Positions 2,521 through 50,117 of a DNA stretch of 64,000 nucleotides are shown piece after piece. Under the pieces are notes generated by a model. That model was not told the DNA's origin and did no database searches. It worked only from the letters and a program-made list of their open reading frames with translations. Source of the DNA: Acanthococcus lagerstroemiae (lineage: Eukaryota > Arthropoda > Insecta > Hemiptera > Eriococcidae); NCBI GenBank assembly GCA_031841125.1, contig CM063110.1:24423626-24487625 (forward strand), written 5' to 3'. The translations under genes were made by a program, and so were the position numbers. Position 1 is the first letter of the stretch. Each line of letters begins with the position of its first letter.

Positions 2521-3951
2521 TCAACTGATGTTCATGGAGTCAAATGTACAATGGCTGAGTGAAAAATTCTTTGTCTTCAAATCTGTAGTAGTCAATGGTT
2601 AGTCAATTGAATCAATTACATAGGTTACACCTACCCAAGGATACGATTTAATGGTAGCAAATCATTCAGACGATTCCTGGGTCAGTCATAGGTAGAACCC
2701 AATAATTCGAATAAAATCACTAATATAGTGTTATGTTATAGTAATGAAAGCCGACAAACAAAGTATGACTTCTACGGTCTCAGAACAGAAGGATGCTATC
2801 ATAGCCGCTCTGAGTAAGACTTTAGTTTACCTATTTTATTTCAAACCCGTTATCCGTCCAATCAACAAGAATACCCATCCACAGTTTTGTTCATAATGTG
2901 TAAGAATATTATGTACTAAGAGCAAGTTCAACATTTCGGTAGCTCTCGATCCTAGCGCAAATCAGGCACCAATCAAAAATTCGTGCTCGATTAGCTCTAA
3001 GCGTTTTGGGCTAAGTTTGCGCTGCTCCTGAGTGGTCGATTTCCAAAGAGGGTGTTGACTAAAAATACGATAACTCTAAATAATTGCTTTGTGAACTGAG
3101 TTTTCATTTCAATATCTTCTGAGTCAAGATTCGACATACCTAGATGAGTATTATTAATTTATTTGTATTACAGGTTCTTCGTTCTGTATTCTGGGTGGTG
3201 ATTTGGAAACATTCGTTGTGACGCAAACCGGCACAGGACAAGGTTGAAATTTATTCTTTTTTCCTCTTCTTTAAATTTTCTACCACCGATATTCAGTCCA
3301 GGATCTGGCCTAGGAAGGTCTCAGTCTTGAGAGAGGGGATTGATGAATTGGGACCTGTGTAATTAATACCCTAAAATGCATTCTAAAATGATCTTTTTGA
3401 CAGCGTTGAGGGAGGGGGTTGTAACCTGAAGACCTCCTGTTCCTACGCCGGTGCTCAAAAGGTATGTACTCGTAAGCTTTTATTATTCTCGTATCAATTA
3501 ATGATGATGCTTATTTTCAGACGCAGTTGTAATCGTAAGCGTAATAGAAGAGTGGTACATGAAGCAAGATAAAACTGAACTGACTGTTAAAATTAATAAA
3601 GTGTTGGTCCAACACGGCATTGATTGCACTCAGTTAACAACTTTCACTAAACCATTCGAAATAGATATAAGCCAAATAAAGTCGGCATCCACGGAAACCA
3701 GAAATCCGGATGGATCTAAGACCGTATCAACAGTTTCTAAAACACCCGATGGCGGCACTGCAGTAGTTACTACTAGCAGTGATTCTGGTAGTAGTGCGAC
3801 CACTGGTACTACACCGCCTTGCCCTACACCTGGCGGTTCACCAGTGCAACCTAGCATCGGGGTGTTATCACTCTCCATTTCAGTGGCACAAAATAATGGA
3901 AATGGTCCTGTTGCAGCAAGTTCCACTTCTGGAGCCGCCGCAACTGGCTAA
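2521..3951 (+). CDS. Gene A: secreted-family paralogue, last four exons (5' partial)
   Basis: No known family recognised. Four exons join in frame: 2521-2597, 2742-2813, 3174-3242 and 3521-3951 (stop TAA), giving about 216 residues. All junctions are GT..AG; the first exon starts in phase 2 and all later junctions are phase 1. Exon 1 here reads VQWLSEKFFVFKSVVVN, matching VAYLSETFEVLQSNVVN of gene B exon 4; both exons are exactly 77 nt. The next begins MKADKQSM like MKAEASSD of gene B exon 5. The third (SFCILGGD..) and fourth (VIEEWYMKQDKTEL) match gene C. The tail after about residue 120 is Ser/Thr/Gly/Pro-rich low complexity with PPCPTPGG. Upstream exons with a signal peptide are expected before the window or beyond the repeats at 46-1405. 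Function unknown. Confidence 0.72.
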
Positions 3952-4247
3952 ACTGTAAAAGCTGTATATTCTAGATCTGAAAAAGCTGATTACGCATAAA
4001 CTGAAAGATGTTCTGTTCAGTTCTGTTCATAATGTTCACCCATCATTTTTCAATTTAGACTTTTGCTAAACGCTAGCAAATTTATTCTAGATTGTGTTAT
4101 TATTATTCACTATATACCTTTATGACTTCTTCTTCCAAGTGCGACATAAGTAGTATATGAATGAAGTATATTATTCTTATGTAGGTACCTACATATTATT
4201 TCAAATTGATTTTGTGCGTTATATTATTTAGTTGAATTATATAATGA

Positions 4248-4253
4248 AATAAA
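4248..4253 (+). terminator. Poly(A) signal of gene A
   Basis: AATAAA about 300 nt after the gene A stop codon in an AT-rich 3' region. Confidence 0.5.
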
Positions 4254-4479
4254 TATGATTATCTGAAGAACGTATTTTTTTATTGATTTTGGTCCTTCCA
4301 CCAGCCAAAGCCAGCTATAGGAGTCACCTTTAACAAAAAACCAATGCCAAAGAGGGTTTAAATAATAATAGATTTTTATAAAAAGGAAATTTTTTAAAAA
4401 TTTAAAAAACAAAAGAAATAAAAAAAAATTAAGAAATAGATAAATAAAAAATAATAAATGAAGAGAAATAATGGCGAAG

Positions 4480-7140
4480 AAAATAAAAATAAACTTGCCA
4501 CATATCCGCTATCCCACAGCTCCCCATCCCACCACTAGCCGCTTAAACGTCAATCTATTAGGCATACTATAAAAAATAATGTCAGCGCCAGTACACTCTG
4601 TCAAGAAATTATTTGCAGGGTTCATGAGGTTGTTTAAGGAGGAGAATTCCATTTTAGTGGTGCGATATTCTTTTAGAGAAAAGTATTTTTTGTATCTAGA
4701 TTGTGTTTTTGGGGCCCACGTATTTATTTCTTGAAACAGTTTTTCTTCGTTAATATTGTTGTAGCATCGTACTATTAAATGCACTCGTCGCAGATAGCCT
4801 AATAAGGAACCGATATTCCTTATCTGGCTAGAAAAGTAATGTATCTATCGTACCAGCCTAGCTGGCTATGATGATGAGTATGTGATGTGCATGTTTGGAA
4901 TATACGGCTAGTTAGAAATGTTTCTCGCATTTGTTTAATATAACAATTACCGTGAATTAGATCATAATATAGAAACATTATTGCTATTTTTCGTCTTCTT
5001 TTTCTTAGAGATTCAATTTCATATCCGGCCAATAGTTCATCATAGGTTATGTTTTCGGAGTCAGGGTGGTATTCAAAATCTTTAAAATAAACGTACTTTA
5101 AAAATCTATTTTGTATTTTTTTTTCTTTCTATTTTTTCAATTACTGCAACGGAATGTGAAACCAAACTAAGACCCCAAATTCCAGAAGGACCTAACAAAA
5201 GAAGAATATAGTATTTTCTGGGTGCTAGTTTTCTTGAAGTTTGCATGCAGAGTTCCTGACAATGAAGTATGCCATTCTGTTCGTCCTAGACATGACACTA
5301 TCAATATGATCGTGAAAGGTCAACTCTCTGTCCAAAAGGATGCCCAAATCTCTGACCTTATCTGATCTAGTTAGTTTTCTCCCCATTATGACGTACTCAT
5401 ATTTGATGTATTACTTTTTCCGGGTGAGAGTGGTATAAGTGCACTTCCCAACATTTAACGACAGCCTATTTTCAATACTCCAGCACGCGAGTCTATCTAA
5501 ATCTCTTTACAGGTTTTCAAAATATTGAACGGTATATTTTTACATCGTCAGCATATATCAGTATTTCCGAGTCTTGGATCACTGAAGGCAAGTCGTTTAC
5601 AAATAGTAGAAACAGTAACGGACCAAAAGATTTGAGCCCTGCGGCAATCCAGATGGACATACAAATTTTTCTGATGTACGACCCCTGTAAGAAACATACT
5701 GTACCCTACCTGTAAGATATTATGACCAAAAGAAGTCACATATGTAGGTTATCAGAAAATCCTAAATCATTGAGTTTTTTCTTCAGAATCCTATGATTTT
5801 TACAGAATCGAAAGCTTTTTGAAAATCAGTATAAATAACGTCTACTGGTACTCTTTTGTCCATACTTCGAGTTCCATATTCTATAAAGTTTATTCAATTC
5901 GTATTAATCGATCTCCCCCCCCCACCCCCCACAAAACCATGCTGACTAGATGATATGACATTTTTATTTGGAGTATAGATAATTGTAAGTGACCAAATTT
6001 TCGCAGGCATTGGGATTAAAGATATTGGTCTGTAATTGGTTACATTTTCGTATGACTCTCTCATTGGGATTGGGACTACTTTAGAACATTTCCATGCTGT
6101 AGGGAAGACACTGTTCGATATACTGAGGTTATACAAATAGGTTAGGGGTTCTATCAGAAATTCTCCTATCAGCTTATAAATGTACGAAAGGACATTATTC
6201 GGGCCTAGGGAGTGTTTTACTTTTAATTGTGGGATTGCCATCTTTACGTATTTTAGCAGAATATGAGTAATGGTGATTAAGGCGCAAGAGGGGGGACATG
6301 ATGCAATTTTGTCTGAGGACACTACATCTTCCAGTATGTATACACAATGAAAAAATTCAGCGAATGCTGAGGTCATTTCATCCTCGTCTCTCACTATTCC
6401 ATTCATATTCTTGAGGAAATCGCAACTCCCAGTTTTTGACTTTTTTTTATTGATCTCTTTCCAAAAGTCTCGAGGGTTTTTATTGTAATTGAGGAGCTCA
6501 GTTCCAAACTGCCCTTAGTCCAAAAAAACCGAAATTGACATTATGACGCAATCTGTCGGAGGAAGTCGATAGCTATCGAATGCAGTTTACCGGAGTTCTC
6601 TATCTATATTCGTTCTCGTTTTATGGGCATACTAATCCGCCATTTTTGTGCTGACCTTTTTCTGTTGACGGTCCACGGAAAAATCAGCACAAAAATGGCG
6701 GATTACTTGACCTGTGAAAATCATTATTGTGTAAGAATCGCAAAAATGAGAAAAAACAGACATTTTACCACAATACAAGATTAAAGAGTTGCGCCAAACT
6801 GCCCTTAGTCCACGACTCTCCCCACTTCACACTTTCATATCTCAGGATAGGTAAAAGTTACAATGACGTCAGTTTTGTCAGTGTTGCCACAATACTTCAG
6901 CTTGCGATTCGTGTTAACAAACTCGAATTTACTCAACATGTTCCAGGATGGGAATGTTTTTTTCGATTTTCTCGAAATCGTTTTTTTGGACTAAGGTCAG
7001 TTTGGAACTGAGCTCCTCAATTGTTCTCCAAGTCAGTACCATACCTGATTTCAGTTTCTTTAATCATTTTTTCGTCTCTCTCCTGAAGTCCTGGAACCTG
7101 CTCAACTCAATTGGTGAAGCGTATAGCGATAAACGCATGC
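4480..7140 (-). pseudogene. Jockey/CR1-like non-LTR retrotransposon, decayed, split by a MITE
   Basis: Read on the minus strand from 7140 to about 4500. The segment before the MITE reads into NKNPRDFWKEINKKKSKTG, the linker typical of Jockey/CR1-type ORF2. It continues with an RT N-terminal region (6406-5894: NYRPISLIP, then SQHGFVGGG), then TDFQKAFDSV (around 5840) and YADDVKIY (around 5545). The C-terminal tail (5032-4509) has the GYEIESLRKRRRKIAIMFLY pattern seen after the RT in this group. Frameshifts and stops interrupt all parts, so it is dead. A 530-bp MITE sits between the linker halves. No endonuclease domain was found. Confidence 0.75.
6492..7021. mobile_element. MITE with about 40-bp terminal inverted repeats
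   Basis: The ends AGGAGCTCAGTTCC..CCTTAGTCCAAAAAAAC (6493-6531) and the reverse complement at 6975-7016 form long TIRs. It interrupts the Jockey-like reading frame, which resumes on both sides. Flanks TAATTG and CAATTG look like a short target duplication. Inside, 6634-6654 and 6684-6704 are a perfect 21-bp inverted repeat around GCCATTTTTGTGCTG, and 6794-6811 repeats the TIR word CTGCCCTTAGTCC. Confidence 0.75.
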
Positions 7141-8644: not shown

Positions 8645-8652
8645 CCAGCGCA

Positions 8653-22371: not shown

Positions 22372-25300
22372 ATGCGTCTCATAAGCGCGATTTCTCTGTG
22401 TGTGGTATTCGCAGCGATTTGCTGGAGTACACCTTTACCAGAAGAAACAGTAATCGCAGCATCTCTTTCGGGAGCGTCGGCACAAAATAACGGACAACGG
22501 ACATCGGCAAATTCTCTATCAGAAGCTGAGGTCACAAATACAGGATCTCCTCCAGCATCCTCAGTTTATGGTCCCAGTCCCAATCCCAGTAGTTCTGTTA
22601 CTTCGTTATCAGGATCTGAGGCAAAATCTGGTCCTGGTGGCACGCAGGCGACCTCATATGGAGCATCTGAAGCAGAAAACACAACTCCAAACGGCAAGTC
22701 TAAGGTAGCATCCGAATCAGGATCTGAGGCAACAACTGGTCATGGTGGCACGCGGGCGGCCTCATATGGAGCATCTGAAGCAGAAACTGCAAGTCCATAC
22801 GGTGGGTCTATGGCAGCATCCGAATCAGGATCGCAGGCAAAAACTGGTCCCGGTACCTCTGAAGCGTCATCTATGACGGGATCAAAAGCAAGCTCAAATG
22901 GTCAATCCGAACCAACACCCTGTCCACCAGGAGAAACACCTCATCCAGGAACATCCCATCCACCAGCACAAAGTCCCCCAGCATCTGGCGGTGCTGCAGC
23001 GGCAGCGGCAGCGGCAGCGGCTGCAGGAGGTGGTGGTAATAATAATTCTGCAGCGGCAGCGGCGGCGGCGGCTGCGGCGTCTAGTAGCGGTTCTAGTAAT
23101 GGTGAACACCAGAAGAACCCAACTGGAGAAACTGGAGAAACTGGAACACCCGACGTGGAGCAATGCGCAATGCACTCTAAGGTCTTGATGCGTAAACCCG
23201 AACATCTGCAATGGGTAGGTGTTACACTGAATAACTTTTTATTTATTTATTTATTTATTTAATAGTTTCCTCCCCCATCACAGCGATTAGGCCAGTTACG
23301 ATTTTTATGATAGAGAATACATGCTCTTGTTGAAACTGAGTTATATAATCGCTACATGTTCTTTTGCAGATGCAACAAACATTTATGCTGTACATGGTTA
23401 CGCCAGCGTCAACCGAAATAACGCTCGATAGTCCAGCATGCTTCCCTCGTCGTAAGTGCTATTATGCATTCATTTTCTTATTTAATGATTGTTTTGATAA
23501 GTATTTAATGTTTTTTGGACATTGAATTGGTACGTTTCTTTTTGTTTAGATTTCAGTGGCGAGTGCGGCTGCACGGCATCGAAATGGAATTACGTCTGCA
23601 CGGAATCCGGTGGATTCGTTAGTAAAGCATGGGCAACGGACGGCAGGTGAGTAAATAATGAAGATATTCAAGAAAATTAGAGAAACTGATGTTCAACCTA
23701 ACCTGATACGTTTATACCTCAGCCACATTTCTTCTTTTACTCCGAGATGATTTGCAAATATGCAAATTAGCATGATCCCAACCAGGCCCGTGCCCAGCTA
23801 TGTGCGGTAGGGGGTGCTAACTGTTTACCAGGGGGGCTTGAGGATACACATAGTGTATAATGTGAAGATTTCTACGCGGCAGTGGTGTAGCCAGGGAGGC
23901 GAAGAATGCTAATGCCCCCACCTCCCGAGGCATTTGAAATTGAATGTAAAATATGCAAAAATTATCAATTTTTGCCTTTAAAACACGTTCTTTCGAAAAA
24001 TTTTTGCTCAAGCAGTAATTTAACTTCATTTTTATAAGATAGTCCACTAATATCGGCGATTTTTAAAAAATACCTCAATTTTCTACCGTTTTTCCCTTGA
24101 AAATCTTACTTTGCCCCCTCCCCTCCTCTTTGGGAAAATCTTGGCTACGCCACTGAATCATGGGTAGAACAGCTAGACTGTACATTCGAATCATTTGATG
24201 AAACTGGAGGTTCGTTCAGGCTCGAAATCGAAAAAGTTGGAGTCAAATCTTTATCGTCGCATCAGGGCCGACAACGTCTATACATATAGCGTGTGTAGCG
24301 AATGCTACATATGGGGAATTTCATGTGTAGCGACGCTACCTACACATGGCAACACCGGGGGAAATTATTGGTACAATTGAAGGTATGCATATAGAGAAGC
24401 TTCAGCTTTCACTTCGCAGAAGTGAAGTGCAAGCTGCAGAGTGTATGCATAAAAAAAGTGAAGAGGAAGCTTTTGCTCAGGAGTGAGAGCGTTTGCTTCG
24501 GGAAAAAGGTTTTCCTTCGAGTTGTGTGCATAAAGAGGAGTGTTAATTTCAAAAGTGAAGCTTTCGCTCGCGCAAAAATGCGTCTAGTACCGAGTAGACT
24601 TCCTTCCAAAAAACACGTGCAGTTATCATTTATCTTCGAGAAGATTCCTTTGATTTCCGATGATAATTTTCGAGGAATTTTAACGAAAATGTTAAGGAAA
24701 AATTTCCGATCATTTTCGAAGAATTTCATCGGACATCACTGAGAAAAATCTCCGATGATTTCAGGAGAATTTTGTTGAAAATTTTAAGAAGAATTTCCAA
24801 CGATACCAAAGGATTTTATTGGTAATCATCGAGAAATATCTCTGATAATTTTTGAAGCATTTCTTCGGAAAAAAGGTTCGATGATTTCCAGAGATTTTCA
24901 TCGGAAATTTTTAGGATAAATTATCGAAGATTTCCGAAGAATTTTATCAGAAATGTTAAAAGAAAATCTCCGATGATTTCCAAGGAATTTTATCAGAAAT
25001 ATTTGAGAATAATCTCTGAGAATTTCCGGAGGATTTCATCAGAAATCTTCAGAGGAAATTTCCAAAGATTTCCGAAGAATTTCTTCAAAACTCTTCCGAT
25101 AGGGTTTTATCAAAAAAATTTGGGAAAAATCCGAGGGTTTTTGAAGAATTTTATCGGAAGTTATCAGGAAAAATCCCTGATGATTTCCAAAGAATAATTT
25201 CATTGGAAATCTTTGAGAAGGATCTCCGATGATCTTAAACGAATTTCATCTCAAATTGTTGGAATAAAATTCAAAAAATTTCCGAAGAATTCCATTGGAA

Positions 25301-28300: not shown

Positions 28301-31300
28301 GTTTCACAATTTCAGCATTTCAGGCTACAAGTCACAGCCACACAGATAACCAGTAACGGTTTCACGTTATCAATAATTTAATCTGCGCGCGCAGATGTAT
28401 GTGGAAAACGCCACGAAATTATAATAATTCGGGCGTTTTCGAACCTGTTCATATTCGCGCGTATAATACCATGAGTGCAAAACGTACGATTTCCTACGTA
28501 TAACAATTACAGAAAACGCACTCTTTCTTAAAAAAGGGGCATTCTAGTGATATGAGAGAATACGCGCGCTGAACATTTCTTATGAATCTGCGCGTAAATT
28601 AAGAACTGATGAAACGCCCGGCAAATTTTCCCATCTTTACTTCTCTAAAACGCCCATTTTTGTAACATGAAGAAATTCGCACGTTGAATGTTTTCAAAAA
28701 GCAATGGCTAATGCGCGCGTAAATAAAAAGTTGTTAAAACTGCCAGTAAAATTTTCAAGGTTCTAAGTGATTTTTTAGTTAAAACGCCCGTTTTTTTCAA
28801 AAACGCGCTCTTCGAAGGCGGAGTTTTGTCAGCAGGGATGCGATGGGATCAGAAATTTTCCCGAAGATTTTTCGGAAATCGTTGGAAATTTTTCTGAAGA
28901 TTTCCGATGAAATTCTTCGAAAATTAGCGGAGATTATTTTCGAATACTTTTCCAATGACATTTTTTTGAAATTATCGGAGACTTTTCTCAAATTATTTTC
29001 GATAAAATTCTTCGGAAATTGTGGGCTGATTTCCGAAGAATTTCATCAAAAATCTTCGGGAAATATCTCTGATTCCATCGCATGAGTGGAAAATAGTCTC
29101 AAGTCTTCGGAAATTATCAATTTTTCCCCCAAAGAATTTCCTATGAAATTCCTTTAAAATCATCGGAGATTTTTCTTGAAGATTTCCAATGAAATTATTC
29201 TCTGGAAATCTTCGGAGATTTTTCCTACAGATTTTCGATAAAATTCTTCTAAAAACCATCGGAGTTTTTCCCCCAAATATTTCCGATGAAATTCTTCATA
29301 AATGATCGGAAAATTATCCAGAAGATTTTCGAAGAAATTCTTTGAAAAACATTGGAAATTTTTTCTGAAGATTTTCGATGAAATTCTCCGGAAAAGATTT
29401 CCGAAAAAATTCTCCTGAAATCATCGAAGATTTTCTTCAGTGATGTCCGATGAAATTCTTCGAAAATTATCGGAAACTTTTCCCTAATATTTCCGATAAA
29501 ATTCTTCAGAAAGTATCTTCGGAAATCAAAGGAATATTCACGAAGATTTCTGATGAAATTCTTTGGAAATCATCGGAGATTTTCCCCGAAATTTATTTCA
29601 TCGGTGCGTTCTGTACACCACAACCATCTTTGTCTTCTCTTCTTTGATGAATGATTTTCGATTTAGAACAAGTTCCCTGAACACTTACGTCGGCTGGTAA
29701 CAACCTGAGCAAACTTTGTTGTCTTTGAAGCACTCCCTTTACTTTGTGGAACGTTTGCTTTGAAGTGAATGAGAAAGCTTATGCATACGGATTAAAGCAA
29801 AACCTTAAACTTCTATCTCTCCCTTCGGAGCGAAGGTTCTCACTCCACTCTTTTGCTTTGACGTTAAAGCTTAATTTTTATGCATACGACCCAATGATAC
29901 GATAATAAAACGTTTTTGTGTAAAATCAGTGTTGGTTTTTCAGTAGCGTAACTACTCATTCCTTCTGGGGTGGGGATTAAAATCATTAGATATTGTTTCA
30001 CCATGTTCAATTTTCATTAAATGAACAAAAAAGGAAACAAACTTATAAGGTATAAGATATCTATCATCTATTACGAAATAAGGTCTATTTTACGCTCTTT
30101 AGATACAGCAAAAACTAAAAATTTTACTTTTAAAGAGTTCAGGGGGGAGGGGTCCCCAAAACCTCCCCCGTATTTACGCCACTGTTGTTTTTTTTTTGTT
30201 TTTTTTGTTTTTTTTGCTACACATGGAATTATGAAAAGTTGCCGGCCCTGCTTGGATTTCACCGTCAATTTTTACAGCCACTTATCCACTATGTTTAAAA
30301 TATATAAACCAAACATTCTGGAGGAAAAATAGCAAATTTACAGTATTACAGAACATTGAATTTGGTCTCGAAATTCATAATCAAAACTGGTGATTCAACT
30401 TACCTACAACCTATTGAAAAAAAAAATTGAATATATCGCGTGAAAAAATATGAACACTTTTACAACAATCAAATTTTCTAACTTTTGGGAGTAAAAGAAA
30501 ATCAAGTTATCAGTTCTCAAACAGCCATTCAGGCATTTAGCCATCGATATTCGAAATGAACTGGATCGTGAGCCTACCACTGTGTTTGTGAATGGCAATG
30601 TGACACAAGAAAAGGGCCTATGTGTCTGAAACTGCTGGATGGACACTCGGGCTCTTTTCTTGTGACACGTCACATATGGAGAACGACAAATACACACGAT
30701 TCGTCTATCTTTTAAAGCAAAATCAGTGCTGCTGAATTTATGAACATTAAAACGTGGGAGAAAAAGAGGTTTTGAACAAAACTAGCAAGAAAACTATAAA
30801 GAACTCGTTATTTTGATTGAGGACATTTTACCATGGGGGAGGGCTCCGGTAAGCGCTAGGGACCCCTCTGGCTACGGGCCTGATCCCAACGTAGGCATAA
30901 CTAGTTGGTTTCACGAGGAATTATAACGGCTCGTATATTAGTTTCATGTACCTACTTGACTTAGAATAGGAATCGATCGAGTATTAACCCTGAGAATTTA
31001 TTTGCAGCATGTTAACTTTTGTTCAAGAAGAAGTGGCATACTTGAGTGAAACGTTTGAAGTACTGCAATCTAATGTAGTAAATGGTTAGTTTATTAGCAT
31101 CGTAGCATGAAAAACTTGATGAGAAAGTCGACTCAAAGGTTCTAATCTCTTACATATACAATTTTCAGTGATGAAAGCAGAGGCGTCATCAGATACCGCT
31201 GTGGCCTCGGAGCAACCTGATCAGCTGGTGGAAGTCCTCAATGGTACGAATCAAGTTATTTATCTATAGTAAAAATTAGAGTATCGGGAACTGAGAACTG

Positions 31301-34300
31301 AGAAGAAATAGGATATTTCTGGAGTGGAAGAAATATATATTTCAGCGTCTGTGAGTGAGTGCAGTGGCTCTCTGAGACCACCCCACCTCCGATCATTTTT
31401 GGGCGCACGCCTCCACGTAGTTTTTCCATTTTCGTTTTTCCTGCGCTAATCTTTGCTACTGGGCCCTCAGTTCTCTGACGAGTTCATCTCTCCATCTGGC
31501 TACTGATCTACCCTTCTTTTTTTTTCCTTTGCAGCGGAATCCAGTTGAGTACTGTTACTCCCCATCTATTATTATTCGTCCTCGCTAGATGCCCCGCATA
31601 TTTCCACATTAATTTTTTGATATTATACCCTATATCCCCGCCTCCCACCATTTCGTATAATTTTGCATTTGAGATTTTATCTACCCATCGCAGTCCTAGA
31701 AGTTTCCTTACCATAGATCTAAACGTAATTTTGAGCTTCATCATTTGTTTCCTCGCAAGAGACCAGGTCGGCGCTCCATACGTGAGGACTGGTACCGCTG
31801 AGCTATTCAGTATTTTGATTCTGAGGGCGGTGTTGGAATTTCCGCAAAAAATAGATTTCAATGCCCAGAAGTTGTTCCACCCCATTTTGATACGCCTCGT
31901 AATTTCTTTGTTACTCTCTTCAAAAATGGTAATCTGTCCTAGATATTCGATTTCTTTTACCCTCTGCCCCTCGATTATCAGATTTTTTCTTTCCCCGTTT
32001 CCGATTATTTTTGATGTGTTAGTAATTCAGCTTGAGGCTAGCTTTTTTTTGCATTCCCTCAATAGCTCTTCTGCCATTTTCTTCAACTCCTTACTATTTT
32101 CTGCAAATAAGATAATATTGTCTGCGTACCTTAGTTTAATTAGAAATTCTCCATTTATTTTTAGTCCCCTTCGTTTCCACTTCAGATTTCGAAATATTTC
32201 TTCCAGAATGCAGGTAAAAAAATTTGGCGACAAGGGATTCCCTTGTCGGACCGCCTCCCAATTTTGAAATCCCTCCCTTTGCTTTTAAGGCTGATCTTTG
32301 CACTCGAATTTGCATAGCAATTCTGTATGACTTCAATAAACCCTCTTTCAGTTCCCTGATTTTCCTGTGCTTTTAACGTATCTCTCTATATATTAAAAAC
32401 CAAAACTCCCCCTCCCCTTCCCCACTCCTGGAAAAAACTCCAAGGAGTCTGATATCTAAATCTCGGTCTTCGTCTAAGACATACCAGACATAAACAGACA
32501 TATAATGACATAATTACCCATACTGCGGGTTACCTACCTAAAAATCAGAAAAATTGCAGGGGCAGACCAGAACTCCTCCCCCCTCCCCCGGAAAAAACTC
32601 CAAGGAGCCTGATATATAAATCCCGGCCTTTGATTAAGACATAACAGACATAATAAAACATAAAGAGACATATAATGACAAAACCAAAACTCCTCCTCCC
32701 CCTCCCCCCTCCTGAAAGAAAAACTCCAAGGAGCCTGATATCTAAGTCCCAGTCTTCGTCTAAGACATAACAGACATAATAAGACATGAAAACACATAAT
32801 GCCATAATTACCCATACTGCGGGTTACTACCTAAAAATGAGAAAAATTGCAAGGGCAGACCAAAACTCCTCCTCCCCCCCCCCTCCTGAAAAAACTCCAA
32901 GGAGCCTGATATCTAAATCCCGGCCTTCGTCTAAGACATAAAAAGACATAATGACATAATTACCCATACTGCGGGTTGCCTACCTAAAAATCAGAAAAAT
33001 TGCAGGGTCAGATCAGCTACTTTCAAGGATATAATCTGTTTTAACATAAAAGATCTCCAAGTTTTAATACATAACCGACATAATAAGGCATATAATGACA
33101 TAATTACCCATAATCTACAAGATCTCAAATCACTGCGCATTGCCTACCCTGCCCCTTAATTGCTCAGTTTTCCAGGGGTAGTCTACCCTCAGGAGGGGTT
33201 CATGGTTGTGGAGGAAGCTCCTGAAGGGGGAGGAGGGCCCCTGTGTTGGCGTGGGGAGGCCCTGGGTGGGGGCAGGCGGCAGGGGGTTAAGATGAATAAG
33301 AGGACCCGATGGAGGAGAAAGTCCTTGGTGAGAGAGGGGACCAGGGAGAGAAATGGCCGTGGTGCGGGAGGTGCTGGTGGCGGGGTGGGGTCTTGAGGGG
33401 GAAGGGCTCTCGAGGGGCGGGTTGGTCATGGTTGTGAGAGCTCCTGGGTGGATGGTCAGGGATCTTCAAGGAGGACCATGGTGAGGACAGGGACTGTGAA
33501 GGGAGATAAGTCCCAGGGGGTAGTCGTGGGTGAGGGGTCCTCATGGTGGAGGAAATGGTTGGTAGGAGACGGTGGCCATTGAGGAAGGATTAGGTAGTGG
33601 TGGGTGAGGGTCCTGGAGGGGCAGTAAAACTTTAGTGGATAAGGGCCCGGGGTTATAACAGGAACTCACTGTGGAGGAGGGAGCTCCTGAAGGGGAGGAA
33701 AACCACGGTGGTGACTGGGACTGTAGAGGAAGATAACGGCCCAGGGTGGGGTGAGTGAGAATTCCTGGCGGAGGAGGAAGTCCTGGGTGAAAGAGGGACC
33801 GGGGAGGGAAATGAAAGCCATGGTGCGAGAGGGGCTGTGGTGGGGGTCTGAACGGGAAGGTAGGTCATGGTGATGGGAGCTCCTGAGTGGAGGACCAGGG
33901 GATCTTTGTGGGAGTTGGGATGAGGAGGCCGCCGAGAAGGAGCAGTGGAAGAGGAAGGCTGTAGCGAAGGATTATGGCCCCAATTGGGAAGGGCGTAATG
34001 ATGGGTCGTTATAGGGGAGGAGTTTGTGGCTGAGGAGGGCTGCAACTGTTGAAGTGCGACCGTGGAGGCGGACAGCGACCGTGGTGAACGAGGGGGTCGT
34101 GGTGGAGGATTAGGAGGCTCGTGATGAAGTAAGGATGGAAGGGGGAATTCAAGGTGGAAGATTGAGGACCGCTGATAAAGGGGGAGCAAAAGAAGCGCAA
34201 AGCAAACCTCAACTCAGGAACAAAAGTTTTAGACCAAACACTGAGGACTGTGATGGTCGAACGAGGCGCGAAGCGCCGAGCAAGGCCGGCGCGAGCAAAG

Positions 34301-35901
34301 TGAGTGATGGTGGGGGTTAGGCCGCGAAGCGGCCAGGGGGCAAAGCCCCCTTGTATTTATGATTCACACTGAATCAAATGTCTTATGAAAGTCGATGCAA
34401 AGCGTTTCAATTTCCGCATCTTATTCATTTGTTTTTTCAATAATTCGGGTCACATAGAAAATATTGTCTACAGTTGAGAAGCCTATTCTGAATCCCGCTT
34501 GTTCATTCCCCCTGCTTTGAATCCAATTGGGCATACATATATCTTTTTAAAACTAACCATAAATACTTTACAGATGTTCGATGTTAAGCTTATTGGCCTG
34601 TAATTTTCAATTAGTTCCTTCACCCCTGTTTTTATATAATAATATTATTTCGGCCAAAAGTTCCGCTGTTTTGGACATATTTTCGTAGATAAAATTTTAT
34701 TAAATATTTTAGTCAAGTGTGGTACAATCTGATTGCCAAACCCTTTCAACATTTCGTTCGTAATTCTATCCGGACCTGGGGCTTTGTCATTTTTCAGTCT
34801 ATTCAATTCGTATTCCACTTCTCTCTCCATTATCTTCGGGATTCCTTCCTCCTTCCATCCTCCAGTTTTTACTATTTTTGGTATCTCGTTTCGCTCGCGG
34901 TACAAGTCCTCGTAAAACCTTGTTGCTACCTCAATTTCTTCTTGATTTTGAATCAATTTTCCTGTCTGATCTCTTAACTTTAGCATAACTTCTCTCTCGC
35001 CACCGAATTCCCGCCTGACTTTTTTAGTGGACCAGCTTTTTCCCAAAATACGAGTATCTTGAATCATATTTTTTAACATCTTCTCTAACTTTTTCCTCAC
35101 TAATTTTTGTACTTCAGTTAGCTCAGTTTTGTCCAGTGGTGTTTTATTTTTATTTTCCCAAAGGGTATTCTTCCTGTGAACCAACTCGAGAATCTGTTTT
35201 GAGAGCTTATCGCCCGGTTTTTCTTTAGCCCTCTTTACTCCAAACTCTTCAACCGCGTTTTTTAAAGCTTGAACCATCCCGTCGTAGAAATTTTCTCCGA
35301 CTTTCGTTTCTTCTAGCACTGATTTTAGTTCTGGCATGCTTCCTCTTTCTTCCCCCTTTACCCTCCCTGTGATTCTTATACTGAACTCTCTGCGGGATGA
35401 GATGCTCAATTTACGGTGTGGTATTAAGTGTTGTTACATCTTTAACTACTGAGGTCATTTACTAGTAAGTGGTCAATTTAATTTTTAGTTTTCCCGTCTG
35501 GCGATATCCATGTCCATTTTCTTTTGACTTTCTTCTTGTAAAAAGTGTTTGCTATATGTAAGTTAAATTTTTGGGCCATTTCTGTTAATCTTTTCCCCCT
35601 GTCATTTCTTTCCCCCAGACAAAATGGGCCGGATTGTTTTGAGTTTGCTTGGAGTGGAAGAAATACACGTCACACATTAGGGATTCAGGTATGAGTGAAG
35701 AATCCCTCTAATTGACCCTCTTTCATAATCATAAATCACTAAACTTCCTTTCATAGAAAAAATCATTGTTGTTAACCCTCTTTTTTGCGTATAGAAAATC
35801 CGTTTGTTACTACGGCCTATCAAATGGTGGGGGTTAATGGAAAGTGCGATAAAGACGACTGCTGCTGTGAATTTTTGTATCATTCAAAAACACCTTTCTA
35901 A
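22372..35901 (+). CDS. Gene B: secreted silk-like repeat protein with Cys-containing C-terminal domain
   Basis: Exons join in frame: 22372-23214, 23370-23451, 23550-23646, 31008-31084, 31169-31243 and 35795-35901, about 426 residues. Junction phases are 0, 1, 2, 1, 1. MRLISAISLCVVFAAICWS is a signal peptide. Residues 80-175 are 36-residue tandem repeats (108-nt period from 22609: SGSEAKSGPGGTQATSYGAS). Then come TPCPPGETPHPG and poly-Ala/Gly/Asn (about 205-240). Exons 2-5 match gene E: MQQTFMLYMVTP.. against MNRLWVVTKIIP.., an ECGC motif, VAYLSETFEVLQSNVVN. The last exon carries KCDKDDCCCEF and the stop. Intron 3 is 7.4 kb and intron 5 is 4.6 kb, both filled with mobile elements. An extra exon 6 may have been split by the RTE at 31321. 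Function unknown; composition suggests an extracellular structural or glandular protein. Confidence 0.78.
22609..22880 (+). repeat. 108-bp tandem coding repeat in gene B
   Basis: The word TCAGGATCTGAGGCAA starts at 22609, 22717 and (as TCAGGATCGCAGGCAA) 22825, exactly 108 bp apart. It encodes 36-residue Ser/Gly/Ala/Glu units, about 2.5 copies. Confidence 0.9.
23237..23262. repeat. (TTTA)n microsatellite in gene B intron 1
   Basis: TTTATTTATTTA run directly after the exon 1 donor region. Confidence 0.9.
23880..24155. mobile_element. hAT-type MITE in gene B intron 3
   Basis: Left end CAGTGGTGTAGCCAGG and right end CTTGGCTACGCCACTG are inverted; CAGTGGCGTAGC ends are common in animal hAT elements. 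No matching 8-bp flank is visible, so the duplication has decayed. Confidence 0.65.
24381..29889. repeat. 5.5-kb foldback structure inside gene B intron 3
   Basis: Mirror-ordered arms. Outer blocks at 24381-24600 and 29690-29889 carry repeated GTATGCATA and GAAGCTT words. Middle blocks at 24640-25560 and 28835-29600 are degenerate tandem TTTCCGATGATTTCC / GGAAATCTTCG units, opposite in orientation. Inner blocks at 25565-25830 and 28385-28830 are AAAACGCGC-rich. The 2.5-kb centre has no recognised genes. The arms are diverged, so it is old. No protein to move it was found. Confidence 0.6.
25840..28380. other. Centre of foldback; no gene recognised
   Basis: AT-rich, scattered ORFs under 90 codons, no conserved motif seen. 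Confidence 0.4.
29941..30184. mobile_element. hAT-type MITE in gene B intron 3
   Basis: Ends CAGTAGCGTAAC and TTTACGCCACTG are inverted; flanks TGGTTTTT and TTGTTTTT match 7 of 8, as expected for an 8-bp target duplication. Same TIR family as 23880-24155. Confidence 0.6.
32381..34353 (+). mobile_element. Complete non-autonomous Helitron (1973 bp) inside the RTE
   Basis: Starts TCTCTCTATATATTAAAA after A (32380) and ends GGGGGCAAAGCCCCCTTG before T (34354), preceded by GC-rich hairpins (GCCGCGAAGCGGCC, GGGGGCAAAGCCCCC). Removing it joins the RTE frame without loss: the codons around the A|T site then read NHKYTLKAQ, as expected after DFxKxFDSV. Internal tandem blocks of about 120 bp at 32440-33000 (AAACTCCAAGGAGCCTGATAT) and a G-rich region 33130-34200 carry no Rep or helicase. 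Confidence 0.88.
32440..33010 (+). repeat. Tandem repeats inside the Helitron
   Basis: CTCCAAGGAGYCTGATAT..AAGACATAACAGACATAATAA recurs about four times at intervals of 130-170 bp, each followed in part by TACCCATACTGCGGGTT. Confidence 0.7.
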
Positions 35902-35903
35902 AT

Positions 35904-35909
35904 AATAAA
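35904..35909 (+). terminator. Poly(A) signal of gene B
   Basis: AATAAA three nucleotides after the gene B stop codon, unusually close. Confidence 0.5.
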
Positions 35910-36022
35910 ACAAAGCGTCAGTGCCCGTAGGTGTATCTGCCATGTTACAGTTTTCACATTTCAAATTCCAAGACTGCTGGAAGATAAGGTTCAGGATTCA
36001 AGAAACGTAAAAAAAACAACAA

Positions 36023-36060
36023 TATATAAAGCCTTCCAAAAGTGGGAGGGGCTTTCAGTC
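36023..36060 (+). promoter_or_regulatory. TATA plus TCAGT core promoter, probably gene C
   Basis: TATATAAA (36023-36030) and TTTCAGTC (36053-36060, A at 36057) are 32 nt apart, TATA to initiator, which is the standard spacing. It lies just after gene B and upstream of gene C on the same strand; the coding exons between 36060 and 38980 were not found. Confidence 0.6.
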
Positions 36061-36329
36061 ATCAAAATAGAACAACACAGACCGTTCCATTGCCTGCTCG
36101 GTCGCTCGACGAACAGACGGTGACATTTCGGGGGAGGGGGCTTTCCGTATGTTTGAGGATTAATCATCCATCAAGCCCGCACTTGTTTGTACTAATGCCA
36201 AGAACCCAAATTTCAGTAGCTGTGTGCATCTCTTCACATCTAGAACTAATGTCAGAGAAACGAATCTTATTATTTCAAAACCTACCCTTTTGGAGAAACA
36301 GGGACAAAAAGTCGTGATACAAGTTCTGG

Positions 36330-37020
36330 GAGTCATTCTCTCTAGTTCTGCACATCGCAGTCCTTGGAGAATCTTTATACAAAATCTGAGTCAGTTTTAT
36401 CGGAGTCAGAAAGAGTCTGGGTGAGCACTGCCTAGTATGAATGAGTCTCATAAGATTTCGGGACGGCCTAATGGCTCTGAACTAGTCCAGCGAATCAACT
36501 GGATGTAAATGGGTAACAGTCTCAACATAGTTCAAATAATTTTAATGGGGCTTTAGAGTCTGGACGGGTCTGTAAAAACTGAAACAGAGTCTGACATGAG
36601 TTTTAACGTATCGTAACAGTCGGGAATAATATTTGGAACAGCTTGAATGAGTTCCAACAAATCCTGAAAGAGTTAATATAAGACTTCATTAGTCTTGAGG
36701 AATTTTAACCTGAGTAAACCTTGAGCTTCGAGCTAGGCTACATTAGTCCCAACATCTTAACTACTCTTGAAAGGAATTAAATAAGCCTTTATAGTATCAA
36801 CATGAATTTTAACGATTCTTAATTTAAAAAATTTAATAATGGTTCAGAGTCTGAATTGGTCCGAACGAGTCATAACCGTCTCAAAGAGACTGAACATGTC
36901 TTACTAGTTTAAAATAAGTTTTAAAAAGGAAGGTATGGATGAACTGTATAGCAGTCTGAATGAAACGTAACACGTCTTAAAAAAGAGTCTGAACAATCTT
37001 CAGTGAGTCGTCCTGGTCCT
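36330..37020. repeat. Degenerate GAGTCTGAAC / GAGTCTTAAC array
   Basis: Dozens of diverged GAGTCTGAA, GTCTTAACA and GAGTTTTAA words at irregular short spacing. Similar tracts at 37920-38050, 42830-43270 and 44120-44760. Confidence 0.5.
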
Positions 37021-38976
37021 TAACTAAAAGCTTGTGTGTGCCAGAGCATTTGATATCTCAACTAGGGCATAAGGTACAACAAAACTTCACTTTTTTTTTG
37101 GAACATGTGCTAGCCAGGGCGGCGCTGCCCTGACGTAAACTACGGGCCTGGAGTCTTTTAATACATCATTGACAGATCTTAACATAGTTCAAATAAGTCT
37201 GAGGGCGGTGTTCTAAGAAAGGTTAAAAGAGCGATCTAGATAAAGTAACATTTCTGGGTTGAAGGAACCAGCGAAATTAAATAATCAGTGAAGGGAGACT
37301 TGAGGAGATTCTAGACACTTGAGCCCCCGTCCATTCCAACTCTACCACAAGCTTAATGAACCTAATCCGATTCTATAGAATGAATGATTCTTTCACTTGA
37401 CAAAGTACTGGTTGTCAAAACGTTTTCGAACTGACACTACTTGTTTTAAAGAATTGTACCTACAAGTTTACTCAACCCTCAGAGACAGAACTGGCCACTG
37501 ATGCTATATTCGAAAGAGTAGTTTCCGGGGCCGAGGGTGCGGTGTCTCGGGGGCCACTGTGGCATGCGCGTGTATCGCCATATGTTTCAACACCCACCCC
37601 TCAGAGACTAAATGAATTCAGAACTATATGGAATTTGAACGAACTCCAAGTGGAAATTATAATAATTCTGTTTTTATAACGACTGCCCGTACGAAAGTAC
37701 AGAAGCTACAGAGGCGGTTTTGTTGGGCGTGTGTTGGATGGGGAGAAGTTGAATTTCTTCAACTGCAAAATGTCAGCTTTATCAGTTGGATCCTGAGGAT
37801 CTAATGTTGCCAACTGATAAAAATAAAAATTCTCCATTTTAGTAACTTTGCCAACTAAGTAGGAATTCAATTTTGCCAATAAAACAGAATTTTTAAAATT
37901 AAGAAGAAAAACTTTTCCCTTAGATGGATCAATAAGTCCAGATGAGTCTTAACAGAGTCTGAATTTTGACATAAATTATCTAATAGCTGATGTAAATAAT
38001 TGGTTAATGAAGTATCTAATGCCAACAGAGCTGTAACATCAAACTATTTTGTATAAGTCAGTATCTGTTATAAGTTTAATGAGTAGTTAAATATTCAACG
38101 TTGGCTCACATGTTAACAAACTTGAATTTTCAAGGAAATTAAATCAACTTATTGGCTTCGCTATGTAATGAAAATTAGGCGCTTTTACTTCCCCTATCAG
38201 GAAGGAACCGATTTGTAAGTCCTCGATCGAGATTCTCGGAGATACAAATCTCTTTAAAATAAAGAGAAGAGACAAGAAATGCATAAAAATATAAGTAGAT
38301 ACTTATTGTAAATTTTCACTATTTTTCTGCTTCCTACGTCTTTCTTACGGCTCCCTACAGTCAATTCTTCATCTCTTCACATATTCCTTTTACGACTTTC
38401 TCTTACCGCTTTCAATAAGTCCTCTAGTACCAACCTTCCCTTCATGAGAGACCAAGGCATAAGCGAGGAGCCATGCTTCGAGAAAGGCCGGTATGAGAAA
38501 AGCAAGCTATCGCAGAAACAAGGCCACTAATAAGCCAATGGATAAAACCTTCCGTTAGAGCACCATTTTCACTTTACTGAGTTTCTCAAATCGAGGTTTT
38601 AACCTACATCTGGGCTCGCTACCAGATTGGATTTGTTCATTCTTCCACCTGCTCTATCCACCCCTGAATTAGATTCGTCATAACCATTTGCAGAACGACA
38701 TCAAGATTAACACAATCTTCTAGAAGCGTGTGCTCATTTTGTATTCTTAGGCATCTCGGATCATAGATTCATTACGGATCTTTTGGTAGCTACAGTTTCA
38801 GATTCACGTTTCATCTGTAGGCATTCATTTAACCTTCCATAGTTCCAGTCACGGCCATTAACAAAAAATAGCTTCTTAATTTCTACGAGAAAACTAGTTC
38901 TTCATTCCTTGTATAACCGCAAATACACACATACACCAATACATATACATCTTCTCTTACGAGTGTTTACTTTTTA
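37021..38976. other. Spacer upstream of recognised gene C exons
   Basis: Contains repeat R1 copy 3 (37510-37583, reverse; TTTCCGGGGCCGAGGGTGCGG). Upstream exons of gene C should be here but none passes both frame and similarity. Confidence 0.4.
37510..37583 (-). repeat. Dispersed repeat R1, copy 3 (reverse)
   Basis: Reverse complement reads GCGATACACGCGCATGCC..GGCCCCGGAAACTAC, like 7116 and 50933. Confidence 0.6.
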
Positions 38977-38979
38977 CAG

Positions 38980-39690
38980 CTTCTGCCTATGTGATTTTGG
39001 GGATTACTAAGAGATTTATTATCCTGAGAACGTGTGGCAAAAGTAAGATTGCCAGCTATAATTAACGTTTCTAGATATGCGCACAGACTTGTAAGGTATG
39101 CGGATGAATCCTACATTGAGATTATGTTTTCAGATTCCATTGTGTTCGTCGGTATAATTGAAGAGGAGTACAATAAAAAAGACAAAGACGAGATCACTCA
39201 CCTTATTAATGTCATACTAGCTGAGAACGGTATTGACAACAGAGACCTCATATTCCTATCGGAGCAATTCCCCGTGGACACCAACAAATATACGAGGGAT
39301 TCAGAAGGCAGCCAGGGCGGTTCTGGAGGTAGTAAAGCGGCTGCGGGTGCAGGTGCCGGTGCCGGTGCATCAAATAACGGAAAGCAGGGTGGTTCATCAG
39401 CCGCTGCGGCTGCCGCCGCTGCTGCTGCATCAAGCAATGGTGGAACTCCATGTCCTCCTGGAAGCGCACCAAATACTCCAAAAAGCCCACCAACTACTCC
39501 ACCATGCCCACCAACTACTCCACCAAGCCAACCGCCTACTCCAAAAAGTGCGACAGTCATCGCCGGTTCTGAAGCTGGTGCCGAGTCTGAAGGTGGTAAA
39601 GCGAAAACAGCGTCCCTTTCAGCAGCAGAAGCAACTCCGAACGGAGTTGAAGCAGCTTCGTTGTCTGCAGCTGAGGCAGAAAATTACTAA
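38980..39690 (+). CDS. Gene C: paralogue of gene A, last two exons (silk-like tail)
   Basis: Exons 38980-39042 and 39134-39690 join with phase 1 on each side (91-bp intron GTAAGA..TTTCAG), 206 residues plus stop. The first matches gene A exon 3174-3242 (SAYVILGITKRFIIL against SFCILGGDLETFVV). The second starts IVFVGIIEEEYNKKDKDEI against VVIVSVIEEWYMKQDKTEL of gene A, and continues in parallel to LSEQFPVD / TKPFEID. The rest is low complexity: GAGAGAGA, poly-Ala, TPCPPG, a PTTPPCPPTTPPSQPPTP block, and an end rich in SLSAAEA, with motifs shared with gene B. A GTG-led reading from 39034 crosses the intron and is not the gene start. Upstream exons (signal peptide) are missing from what I can read. 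Confidence 0.72.
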
Positions 39691-41521: not shown

Positions 41522-41757
41522 TTCTCTTTTCTAATTTTACTCTCAATCTTAGCCCTGAAATCCGCCCTTTCGAGCATTACTTCAGAGACGTCGGGAAGGC
41601 CATTAGAGTTGTCTTAACGCTCTTCTCATCTTGCCGAAAAACCGGCCTAGGTCGAAATGTAGCGAGTCGCAACGTGGGCTCGAACCCGGAACCTCCGGAT
41701 TCCGAGACCAGCGCGCTTTCCACTCGACCAACCAGACAAGACCTCTCTTGAACTGAG
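41522..41757 (-). repeat. tRNA-derived SINE, copy 1 (reverse)
   Basis: Reverse strand: A box TGGTCGAGTGGAAAGC, B box GGGTTCGAGCCC, then a body TTTCGACCTAGGCCGG..CGACGTCTCTGAAGTAATGC. Matches 62676-62898 over its full length. Confidence 0.8.
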
Positions 41758-41939
41758 TCTTTGGCTTGAAATTTGTTCAGGAGGAATTAAAAATGTGAGT
41801 TTTGGTAAACTACAATGTGTTTTCATAAATTTCTAACATTTTTATACAAGACGTGAAACAAAAATCCCCAGCCGTTATCCTCTTCTTCCTCTTCTTTTTT
41901 TTTTTTTCTATTGATAAGAATATTGAGGTGAATACCCGG

Positions 41940-43300: not shown

Positions 43301-43304
43301 GCCA

Positions 43305-44820: not shown

Positions 44821-44828
44821 CTTGTAAC

Positions 44829-45358: not shown

Positions 45359-45416
45359 TTTGTAACGTACCTAGAAAAAGGTTTCTCCACACTCTTCGTT
45401 TTTTCCTTATGTCCTT

Positions 45417-46805: not shown

Positions 46806-46883
46806 GACTGAGTCTGTCTTTTGAGAGACATGCTTAGCTTAGCGTTAGCCTTGTTTTTGGAATTAGACCCATGAAGATGTTCC

Positions 46884-47075
46884 CAGGGACGTAGCGAAGA
46901 GTTTTTTTCTGGGAGGGGCTAAAGTCGTTAAGTTCCCAACCGACTCAGTCAAAATTCCCAAGTATTAAAATTTGTTTGTACTAGCAAAAAAAACTTTTGA
47001 CTTTCTGGATTCTTCCTTGTTGGATTTTCCCAACTTTTGATCCATCTAATGAAATTTCCCAACTCCGGAGGAAGC
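46884..47075. mobile_element. Second, degraded copy of the CAGGGACGTA hAT-type MITE
   Basis: CAGGGACGTAGCGAAGAG..AATTCCCAAGTATT..CTTTTGACTTT parallels 8450-8644; right end not identifiable. Confidence 0.55.
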
Positions 47076-47660
47076 TTAAGGGTAGGCTGCCCCCGTGTCC
47101 CCTTTATTTTCCGTCTTTGGGGCTTTCCACCAAATGAGAAGGCCAGAAAATGTTATTATTTATGTACCTATTTGGTAAGTCTTTATACAAATAGCTGAAA
47201 GGCGATACGGAATTTAGCGTCCTATATAGTTTTTCGAACTTACAACAGGAATGCCTCGAACCATCTACCCGGCATCCCCTCGGTCGATGATCACTAGCAG
47301 ATTCAACACACCCACCACTCTCGAAAAAAATTATTATAAATCGAGAAAATCATTAAAACTATTAATCCGGTTTTGTTAAAGATAACTTTATGAATCAGCA
47401 TACATGTTACATAGTATATGGCTGCACAATGCATATATTATGTACTACATGCATTGTGCATTACGCGCAGTTTCTTTGATCTACAGATACCATTTGTTGG
47501 TAATCGATGCCATTTTTAGTCAAAACTTGATAAATTGGTTTCATGGCCGCTCTCGATATTCCATTCATGAAAGCATCCTCTGTGAATGCGACCCATGCTA
47601 ACGGTACTGATGAAACATACGTATAATGAAACGTGCGCAGTTTTACTACAATTGTATAAT
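47076..47660. other. No feature seen
   Basis: AT-rich spacer; short ORFs unsupported. Confidence 0.35.
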
Positions 47661-47760
47661 ACCAATTGGTAAATGTGCCCTGGAATCATGAAATGTGCCT
47701 CTGGTATCAAAAATCATTTTTCACTTTCTTGGCAGTTCTTATAGAAAAAAACACGCTTTT
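47661..47760 (+). pseudogene. Plus-strand partial copy of gene E last exon
   Basis: CTGGAATCATGAAATGTGCC (47681-47700) also occurs on the minus strand in the gene E terminal exon. In the matching frame it reads PWNHEMCLWYQK against TWNHEMCLSYEN. Upstream parts of the exon are not preserved, so this looks like a small inverted duplicate. Confidence 0.5.
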
Positions 47761-47934
47761 TCGAATGAAATTAATTGCAGCTTCCTATCTTTATTAGCTT
47801 TTCCACAAATTGCCTTTGAAAACTACGTCAACTTTAAAAACGTCCGTTTATACGGCGTTGTGTGCAACGGGCCTACGGGAATAACAGAGCACAAGAATTT
47901 GAAACGCGGCTGTCATAGCAACGCGTAAACGCAC

Positions 47935-47963
47935 CACAGATGTACACGCTATGTACATCTGTG
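47935..47963. other. Perfect hairpin downstream of gene E
   Basis: CACAGATGTAC and GTACATCTGTG form an 11-bp stem around a 7-nt loop, 25 nt after the gene E stop, on the transcribed strand. Confidence 0.7.
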
Positions 47964-47987
47964 CGCACCTCTATCACCATCCCATCT

Positions 47988-50117
47988 TTACACTTGTTCA
48001 TCTCGAAACCTGTTTTCGTAGGAGAGGCACATTTCATGATTCCAGGTCACATACGATGTTTGGTTTTTTGATCCCGTTGTAGGGAAATCTATGCTAATAA
48101 AAAACAAGATGAGAAGGTATTTCGCCCACTTTTTGAAAATGTAGAAAATAATGGACAGTTTAACTGTATGAAGTACCCAGAGTGTTCCATGAAAATCCAA
48201 ATTTTTTGTTTCAAGTCACATTGAAACGGAACAAAGGAGGGCTAATTATATTTTTGAGTGACAAATTTCTATCAGGGTTTTTACTTGCAGATTTAAATAC
48301 TTATTTCTGAGACAATTGATGTTCCTTACTTGAGCTGTGGGATGAGCAGGTCGCAAAAACCGCATATGTCTTGTAATTATCTGTAGCTAGAAGGGCGAAA
48401 GGGATATCTGCGGATAAAGATAGAACATTAGTACACATCTGATAATAGTTTGTTTTATTGTTTGTCGTCCAAGTAGGGTAATTCTATATTTTACTAAATC
48501 CTGAGAAAGAGATTTAATGATTTTCAACTATACATTAGATCAGACTGTAAGTTTGAGCAGCGCATGTATCTTCAAAGGTAAAGAACGATCATGTCCCAAC
48601 TTTAACATTGTGTTCGTAAGCACATTCTGGTAAAAATATTCGCCCGGCAATACTTACATTCTGGGCTCAATTCTTCATCAGTAAGCGACGTGATTTTGGT
48701 TGGAGAACCAGATGAAATTAAGGCAGCTATTCGAATAAAAAGGAATCACATTTGTTAGCAAATAATTAATATAATTATTCAAAAAACTGGATGATTCAAT
48801 TACTGGACTAATAATTCTTACCCATGACATGTTGTGACTGAAAAACGTCGTATGTGTCATCAACGAACACAACTCTGTTTTCTATGAATCGGTAAGTTTG
48901 TGACCTGGAAAAATTAATTATAAGACAGCCTGTTCACTAAAAAGCTTTGTAATCTCATTTTTTAAATCAAATTATTGTTAATATAGTCTACTTGATACTG
49001 TGAAAATCATGGGTATAATACGCATAATAAATATGACCCTGGATGAAAAAACCCCCTCAGTGTTTCTCTGCGTTTTATGTGAACACATGTTTATGTAGTC
49101 GTCGACTCTGGATAGTAATAAAACTTCAGTACCCGGAACCATCGAGAATATAAAGCTGCATTTACACTAACCTGACGAACAGAATTTTGAATGCAGAGTT
49201 CTTGAAAAAACGTGAAAATACACTATATGAGGGGGTTTTATCATTCGGGGTCACAAATATGCTTAAAATTAGATGTCAATTATTCCCATCCAGAAATGTT
49301 CGGGAAAATTTCACCCAGAATCTTGTAAAATTCTCACGTCAATAAACATTTTTAATGAAGTAAGAGATTCTCCAAAATAAGGTATAGGTAATACTCGTAC
49401 CTTATAACTCATCTATCCGCTCAAATTGCTCTGTGGTTTTTACTTACTTTTCATGCAGTCCTATCGACTGCATTTTTATCGAACCATCATCATTAAATCC
49501 GATGTAGTAACGTAAACATTTACATTCTCGGTCACTAAAATCTATTAAAAAAATTTAAAATAGAAGTTCGATTTAATATTGAAAATCTTCGTACGCTGTA
49601 GGGGTCAATTTTGAAACTCCAAGAGATCTTACTGTGCAGACCACAGGCTACGGAATCATCTAAATACCTGCTTCTCCCTTTAGGTATTATTTTAGTTACT
49701 ACCCATAATCTGTTCATCTGCAATACATAAATAGATGTTTTTAGAATTTAATTCATAACAGTTCTGTATGAAGCTCCGCCGAAGTTCATATTTAAAAACG
49801 AATCTTACGTAGCCCTGGAATTCATCAGCTACGTCAACGATCGCATAATTGGGGCAACCTTTTGCATATTTACGCGAATGTGATTCCAGAACAGCCTTAG
49901 AGTCGTCGATGTCTTCTTGAACTCTGCCCATTTCGTTATTCATTTTTTGATTCATATGTTTCATTCTTTGATGAGGAATATTAGTGATAATATTTTCGAG
50001 TTTCTCTTCCGCATCAATATTCCCCGGAGACGCCATACCTGAAGCCAATTCTCCTGGCAATGTTCTCCCCCAAGACATGTCCATTAAAGAGGCGAGGAAA
50101 ATAAGAAAAAGTTGCAT
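47988..50117 (-). CDS. Gene E: small secreted Cys protein, seven coding exons
   Basis: Minus-strand exons 50117-49809, 49717-49633, 49526-49448, 48904-48822, 48726-48658, 48380-48330 and 48088-47988 total 777 nt (258 residues plus stop). Phases 0, 1, 2, 1, 1, 1. MQLFLIFLASLMDMSWG is a signal peptide; residues 20-85 are polar and helical-looking; cysteines follow at GCPNY, ACGLH, CKC, ATCSS and EMCLSY, with one NQT glycosylation site. Exons 2-4 match gene B in frame, phase and pattern (MNRLWVVTKIIP; KCKCLRYY; VVFVDDTYDVFQSQHVM). No low-complexity region. The exon 3 acceptor is chosen by frame (GACCGAG|AATG); a stronger-looking TTTTAG upstream would break it. An acceptor just before the ATG implies a non-coding first exon. 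Role unknown; extracellular. Confidence 0.8.

Follow-up and report, generated by a model that had tools for sequence, protein, structure and literature searches.

Three clustered genes with conserved intron phases in Acanthococcus lagerstroemiae: divergent proteins of probable lipocalin ancestry

Lipocalins are secreted barrel proteins, which usually carry small fatty molecules. A subgroup of them, the kernel lipocalins, is marked by a GxW motif in strand A. The positions of introns in lipocalin genes were reportedly tabulated by Sanchez et al. in 2003. In two published accounts, a fixed exon structure that houses a divergent protein appears as an ordinary lipocalin trait (PMC3695081; PMC4487233). 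The former account describes how exons of the tick outlier lipocalins (histamine-binding proteins, Japanin) are recognised by the conserved position and phase of their introns (PMC3695081). Quite another set of divergent proteins united by gene structure is that of the bicycle genes of aphids, phylloxerids and coccids, with about 17 exons on average (5 at minimum) and microexons of phase 2 (PMC9168663; see also PMC13041983).

We compare with these systems a locus of the eriococcid A. lagerstroemiae. The window, i.e. the whole stretch of DNA that was analysed, spans 64,000 nt (C5:24423626-24487625). Coordinates of features are given in the frame of this window, negative numbers lying upstream of it.

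Three genes at the locus

A sequence-only reading of the window had described four genes, A, B, C and E, as one related multi-exon set with fixed phases and low protein identity. The set itself is borne out, with real exons, splice sites and phases: the proposed exons have GT-AG borders and open frames in a splice-site and frame check. A, BC and E have a common origin. The count did not survive. The locus holds three genes (A, BC and E), what had been named C being the last two exons of B, across a 7.7-kb intron. The observation is partly confirmed, and its interpretation partly supported. Phases 0,1,2,1,1,1, ascribed to all, are those of A and BC; E, where intron 1 is missing, has 1,2,1,1,1. 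The exon 4 lengths put forward (77, 77 and 83 nt) are those of exon 4 of A and BC and of its equivalent in E. Each of the three predicted frames runs open from its start to its stop.

Gene BC is read on the forward strand. Its exon 1 (22372..23214, 843 nt) comprises a signal-like N terminus, a repetitive Ala/Ser/Gly arm of 242 residues and the start of the core. Exon 2 (23370..23451, 82 nt, phase 0 to 1), exon 3 (23550..23646, 97 nt, phase 1 to 2, with a Cys-x-Cys motif), exon 4 (31008..31084, 77 nt, phase 2 to 1) and exon 5 (31169..31243, 75 nt, phase 1 to 1) follow. Intron 5 (31244..38979, 7736 nt) contains long frames, by eye broken non-LTR transposons, two of which have no Pfam match above the cut-off. 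Exon 6 (38980..39042, 63 nt, phase 1 to 1), with acceptor TTTTTACAG and donor GTAAGA, was chosen from eight listed candidates; it is matched by an outside protein, P0121. Because this missing exon was found between exon 5 of B and C, the two are read as a single gene. Exon 7 (39134..39690, 557 nt), within the former C, starts 91 nt past exon 6 and encodes the end of the core, an Ala/Gly/Ser/Pro arm of 129 residues and the stop. Spliced, BC makes 597 residues with no internal stop.

The window itself carries only exons 4 to 7 of gene A, again on the forward strand. Exon 4 (2521..2597, 77 nt, phase 2 to 1) is defined by its splice sites and frame; exon 5 (2742..2813, 72 nt) and exon 6 (3174..3242, 69 nt, with a weak donor, GTTGAA) both run from phase 1 to 1, and exon 7 (3521..3951, 431 nt) holds the last part of the core, a Ser/Thr/Gly-rich arm of 89 residues and the stop. 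The pattern proposed from this half of the gene led to the other half, upstream of the window on the same strand: exons 1 to 3 lie at -8180..-7800, -3621..-3540 and -2241..-2151. In the 10 kb searched upstream, an N terminus 81% identical to BC exon 1 over 26 residues (E 2.7e-9) is followed by a sequence similar to BC exon 3 (E 0.03). A profile of exon 3, made from BC and E alone, was run over 304 kb; among 11,428 frames, the best after the profile's own two sources was A exon 3 (E 0.035). Exon 2 was picked by eye from a candidate list. It has 82 nt, as does BC exon 2. Of the four open candidates of this length in the interval it scores 31, and none of the other three exceeds -23; 4 of 100,000 shuffles reach 31. 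Joined, gene A encodes 400 residues with phases 0,1,2,1,1,1, and it reads as intact. Both A and BC contain long introns (4-8 kb).

Gene E, on the reverse strand, encodes 294 residues. Its exon 1 (49703..50117, 415 nt, ending in phase 1, donor chosen by eye) spans exons 1 and 2 of A and BC. The equivalents of exons 3, 4 and 5 are at 49448..49541 (94 nt, phase 1 to 2), 48822..48904 (83 nt, phase 2 to 1) and 48658..48726 (69 nt, phase 1 to 1). That of exon 6 (48330..48407, 78 nt, phase 1 to 1) bears a lipocalin stretch, LATDNYKTYAVFATC, and that of exon 7 (47461..47606, 146 nt with the stop) ends in NGIDYQQMVSVDQRNC, an ApoD-like ending.

Profiles of exons 3, 5 and 6 have little power. Over the 304 kb around the window, the exon-3 profile from BC and E brought up no fourth member. 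Genome-wide (658 Mb), BC exon 7 retrieved BC and A only, in a search that gives a lower bound; besides A and BC, A exon 7 retrieved one place at E 5; E retrieved all six of its exons and, weakly, two further places, on C8 and at C5:3.93 Mb, the latter being read as noise from its frames. In genome searches, distant members such as E and A do not find each other, and three genes is therefore a lower bound for the size of the family.

Probable kinship with lipocalins

E is the less diverged member. Against PDB it has a single match, ApoD. Its score with lipocalin profiles lies beyond permutations in two runs, the alignment covering 117 profile columns when five lipocalins are used and 119 when six are. 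The cysteines of E, ApoD and a lipocalin of the same genome coincide in columns 18, 80, 175 and 235 (E has three further ones), and the TDxY stretch of E aligns with that of ApoD, one of the structurally conserved lipocalin regions. Combined with A and BC, E scores lower than alone (28.9%), and none of 60 permutations reaches that score. Not every template gave a signal: E was not significant against bilin-binding protein and Blc alone, its score with an insect-only pair was reached by 2 of 100 permutations, and with Blc as the only template by 9 of 40.

The lipocalin of the same genome, an ApoD-like protein of 289 residues in 5 predicted exons (C4:45177915-45184543, phases 0,2,1,1), passes Pfam and keeps GTWYE. 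Just downstream of it, near C4:45185190, by eye, is the first exon of an apparent tandem lipocalin copy. The phase-2 intron of the C4 lipocalin falls in the same column as that of E, at the end of E's exon 3 equivalent, and phase-1 introns are off by 1 and 3 columns; two of E's five introns and the phase-0 intron of the C4 gene are unmatched. The phases of A and BC include 0,2,1,1 in this order. The layout of the family is most likely that of ordinary lipocalin genes, to which two introns of phase 1 have been added. The genome's single PF00061 match (C8:43647929-43648192) was discarded, as by eye it looks like an exon of a fatty-acid-binding protein.

Taken alone, A and BC tell little. Of 60 permutations, 45, 5 and 2 reach the scores of BC, A and BC+A with lipocalin profiles, and 10, 29 and 7 do so in a further run; against the C4 lipocalin, BC and A have Z of -0.1 and 0.4. 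Since neither stands out, the lipocalin membership of both rests on E. They keep only traces of the structurally conserved regions. Cys-x-Cys is present in exon 3, with no cysteine where E ends in RNC, and as the four-cysteine ApoD pattern is thus incomplete, A and BC are filed as lipocalin-derived, not ApoD-like. The cores of E, BC and A have no GxW of strand A (the C4 lipocalin has GTW), and we file none of the three genes under the kernel lipocalins.

Profile collections were silent. Up to E 10, Pfam has no family for full E, A or BC, and no lipocalin match was obtained for them in Pfam and NCBIfam; the Pfam gathering score is diagnostic of lipocalins, not their defining feature. Of the 742 candidates that E alone had in the protein collection, not one came within E 10. 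Some matches were set aside: against PDB, the BC core alone met only a designed repeat protein (0.96); the BC+A profile met two unrelated proteins (0.57 and 1.8), and P0121 alone five weak matches (best 0.37).

Profile A1 (E+BC+A), run against 5.77 billion proteins, had 1243 candidates scored and one kept, P0121 (E 8e-17). It consists of BC exon 6 and exon 7, between which the intron is read through for 30 residues. The prediction of P0121 includes a retained intron of about 90 nt, which is open there and, by eye, closed by a stop in the present genome. P0121 itself was not found in the 658 Mb genome, where the lower-bound search with BC exon 7 matches BC and A only, and another species is therefore its probable source. 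Its core agrees with that of BC exon 7 in 55 of 61 residues. Its arm, 72% Ala/Gly/Ser/Thr/Pro, has a make-up similar to that of BC and, by eye, a different sequence. The sequence-only reading spoke of racing proteins; in this single comparison the core is held and the arm drifts, which is not a picture of racing.

The sequence-only reading had also recognised no published family, a view that is not supported: E is lipocalin-like, with A and BC grouped with it. We regard a lipocalin ancestry as close to certain for E and highly probable for A and BC, and we consider it very likely that the cluster consists of three ApoD-like lipocalins that have diverged. An apparently orphan, fast-evolving effector family can, then, be a lipocalin family below the reach of Pfam. 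The present one was recovered via one less-diverged member, together with intron positions and phases.

Arms, neighbours and rival readings

The N arm of BC (242 residues, 72% Ala/Gly/Ser/Thr/Pro) has 108-nt repeats; its C arm (129 residues) and that of A (89 residues) reach 76% and 71%, as against 27-29% for the cores (A being counted from exon 4 on, with its Pro-rich N arm outside the count). The suspicion that the proteins are secreted finds an echo in the hydrophobic, signal-like N termini of E and BC, a matter of hydropathy measure only, the N terminus of A being the one so close to that of BC. These termini suggest secretion.

The following scenario may be proposed. A, BC and E would have arisen by duplication within the cluster, their hydrophobic N termini would direct secretion, and the fold would be an eight-stranded barrel with a C-terminal helix. 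With its ApoD cysteines and TDxY, E would most likely carry a small hydrophobic ligand, and it seems to be the member of the family closest to a working carrier. Judging from composition, the arms may form secreted material; those of A and BC would most likely place the barrel inside hydrated or fibrous secreted matter, as a ligand store or an assembly node. That A and BC carry a ligand within such material is a possibility against which we would rather bet. More tentative still, and somewhat unlikely, is a picture of BC and A as composite secreted proteins, a motif-stripped lipocalin barrel set between silk-like or mucin-like arms, a carrier fold recruited as building block of a material, with the C4 lipocalin as halfway form. 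If the arms do put barrels in secreted material, the lipocalin fold would be used there in an unusual way.

Five frames, apparently a second set of secreted proteins, flank the lipocalin genes on both sides: 60841-63668 (+), -15253..-14792 (+), 82691-83287 (-), 123372-123830 (+) and 134340-134921 (+). Each has a Cys-bearing, probably helical part, then a tail rich in Pro/Ser/Thr/Asn/Gln. Compared in pairs, they are only weakly similar (in 4 of the 10 pairs, at most 3 of 500 shuffles reach the score), and phmmer with three of them returned only themselves up to E 1. The one at 60841-63668 has no Pfam match above the cut-off. A reverse transcriptase domain (PF00078, E 2.9e-24) lies at 56615-57301 (+); four other long frames searched along with it have no Pfam match above the cut-off. 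Two tRNA-like sequences with similar flanks, about 62674-62745 (+) and 41690-41760 (-), are by eye a tRNA-derived SINE, without a tRNA call from ARAGORN anywhere in the window. Tandem arrays of 46-nt period (24662-25087 and 29121-29420), by eye related and in opposite orientation around some 4 kb, are possibly the inverted repeats of a DNA element.

Could the genes form a new family of secreted effectors or gland proteins that has nothing to do with lipocalins, with E resembling ApoD by convergence or chance? The absence of Pfam matches for full E, A and BC, the lack of lipocalin signal in A and BC alone, and an E that has no relative up to E 10 among its 742 candidates all speak for it, as do signal-like N termini, low-complexity arms and secreted-looking neighbours. 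We nevertheless hold it to be highly unlikely: ApoD is the sole PDB match of E, profile scores lie outside permutations, and intron positions and phases coincide with those of the C4 lipocalin, which Pfam accepts. Plant effector genes of the bicycle kind share with the cluster the very idea of a conserved gene structure with divergent protein (PMC9168663). Yet their own published linear classifier, which uses exon numbers, lengths and phases, rejects E and BC when run with its printed coefficients (p about 1e-9 and 6e-19, for a cut-off of 0.72), and 6-7 exons, a single internal one being of phase 2 in each gene, sit poorly with an average of about 17 (minimum 5); we see next to no chance for this identity.

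A last reading accepts lipocalin ancestry and takes the genes to be on their way out, drifting, weakly expressed relics that make no functional proteins. Long introns of 4-8 kb in A and BC, lost motifs and the weak donor of A exon 6 speak for it. Three predicted frames without interruption, and a BC core kept at 55 of 61 residues in P0121 while the arm differs, speak against it, and we hold it to be very improbable. We retain divergent lipocalins in one cluster as the preferred account.

Comparison with known lipocalins and bicycle genes

The C4 lipocalin is one term of comparison. As in A and BC, a phase 0 intron precedes strand A; in common with the family, phase 2 comes after strand B and phase 1 stands on either side of the TDY strand, and this protein too ends in an Ala/Pro-rich (Ala/Pro/Gly/Lys-rich) tail. 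It has, however, two phase-1 introns fewer than their layout. Human ApoD (PDB 2hzq) shares with E the TDY..Y stretch, four cysteine columns and an ending of the form (N)xID...DQxNC. E differs from it in having no GxW tryptophan, about 20 residues inserted ahead of strand B and an N-terminal part of greater length, and A and BC in their missing last cysteine and their repetitive arms. Tick outlier lipocalins, likened here by description, have in common with the cluster low identity and conserved introns; they are not known to bear long repetitive arms. Bicycle genes stand apart from A, BC and E by exon number and by their phase-2 exons. The conservation of the lipocalin exon layout despite divergent sequence is already known. 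The novelty at this locus lies in how far the sequences have diverged, in two phase-1 introns beyond the usual set and in the repetitive arms that A and BC carry.
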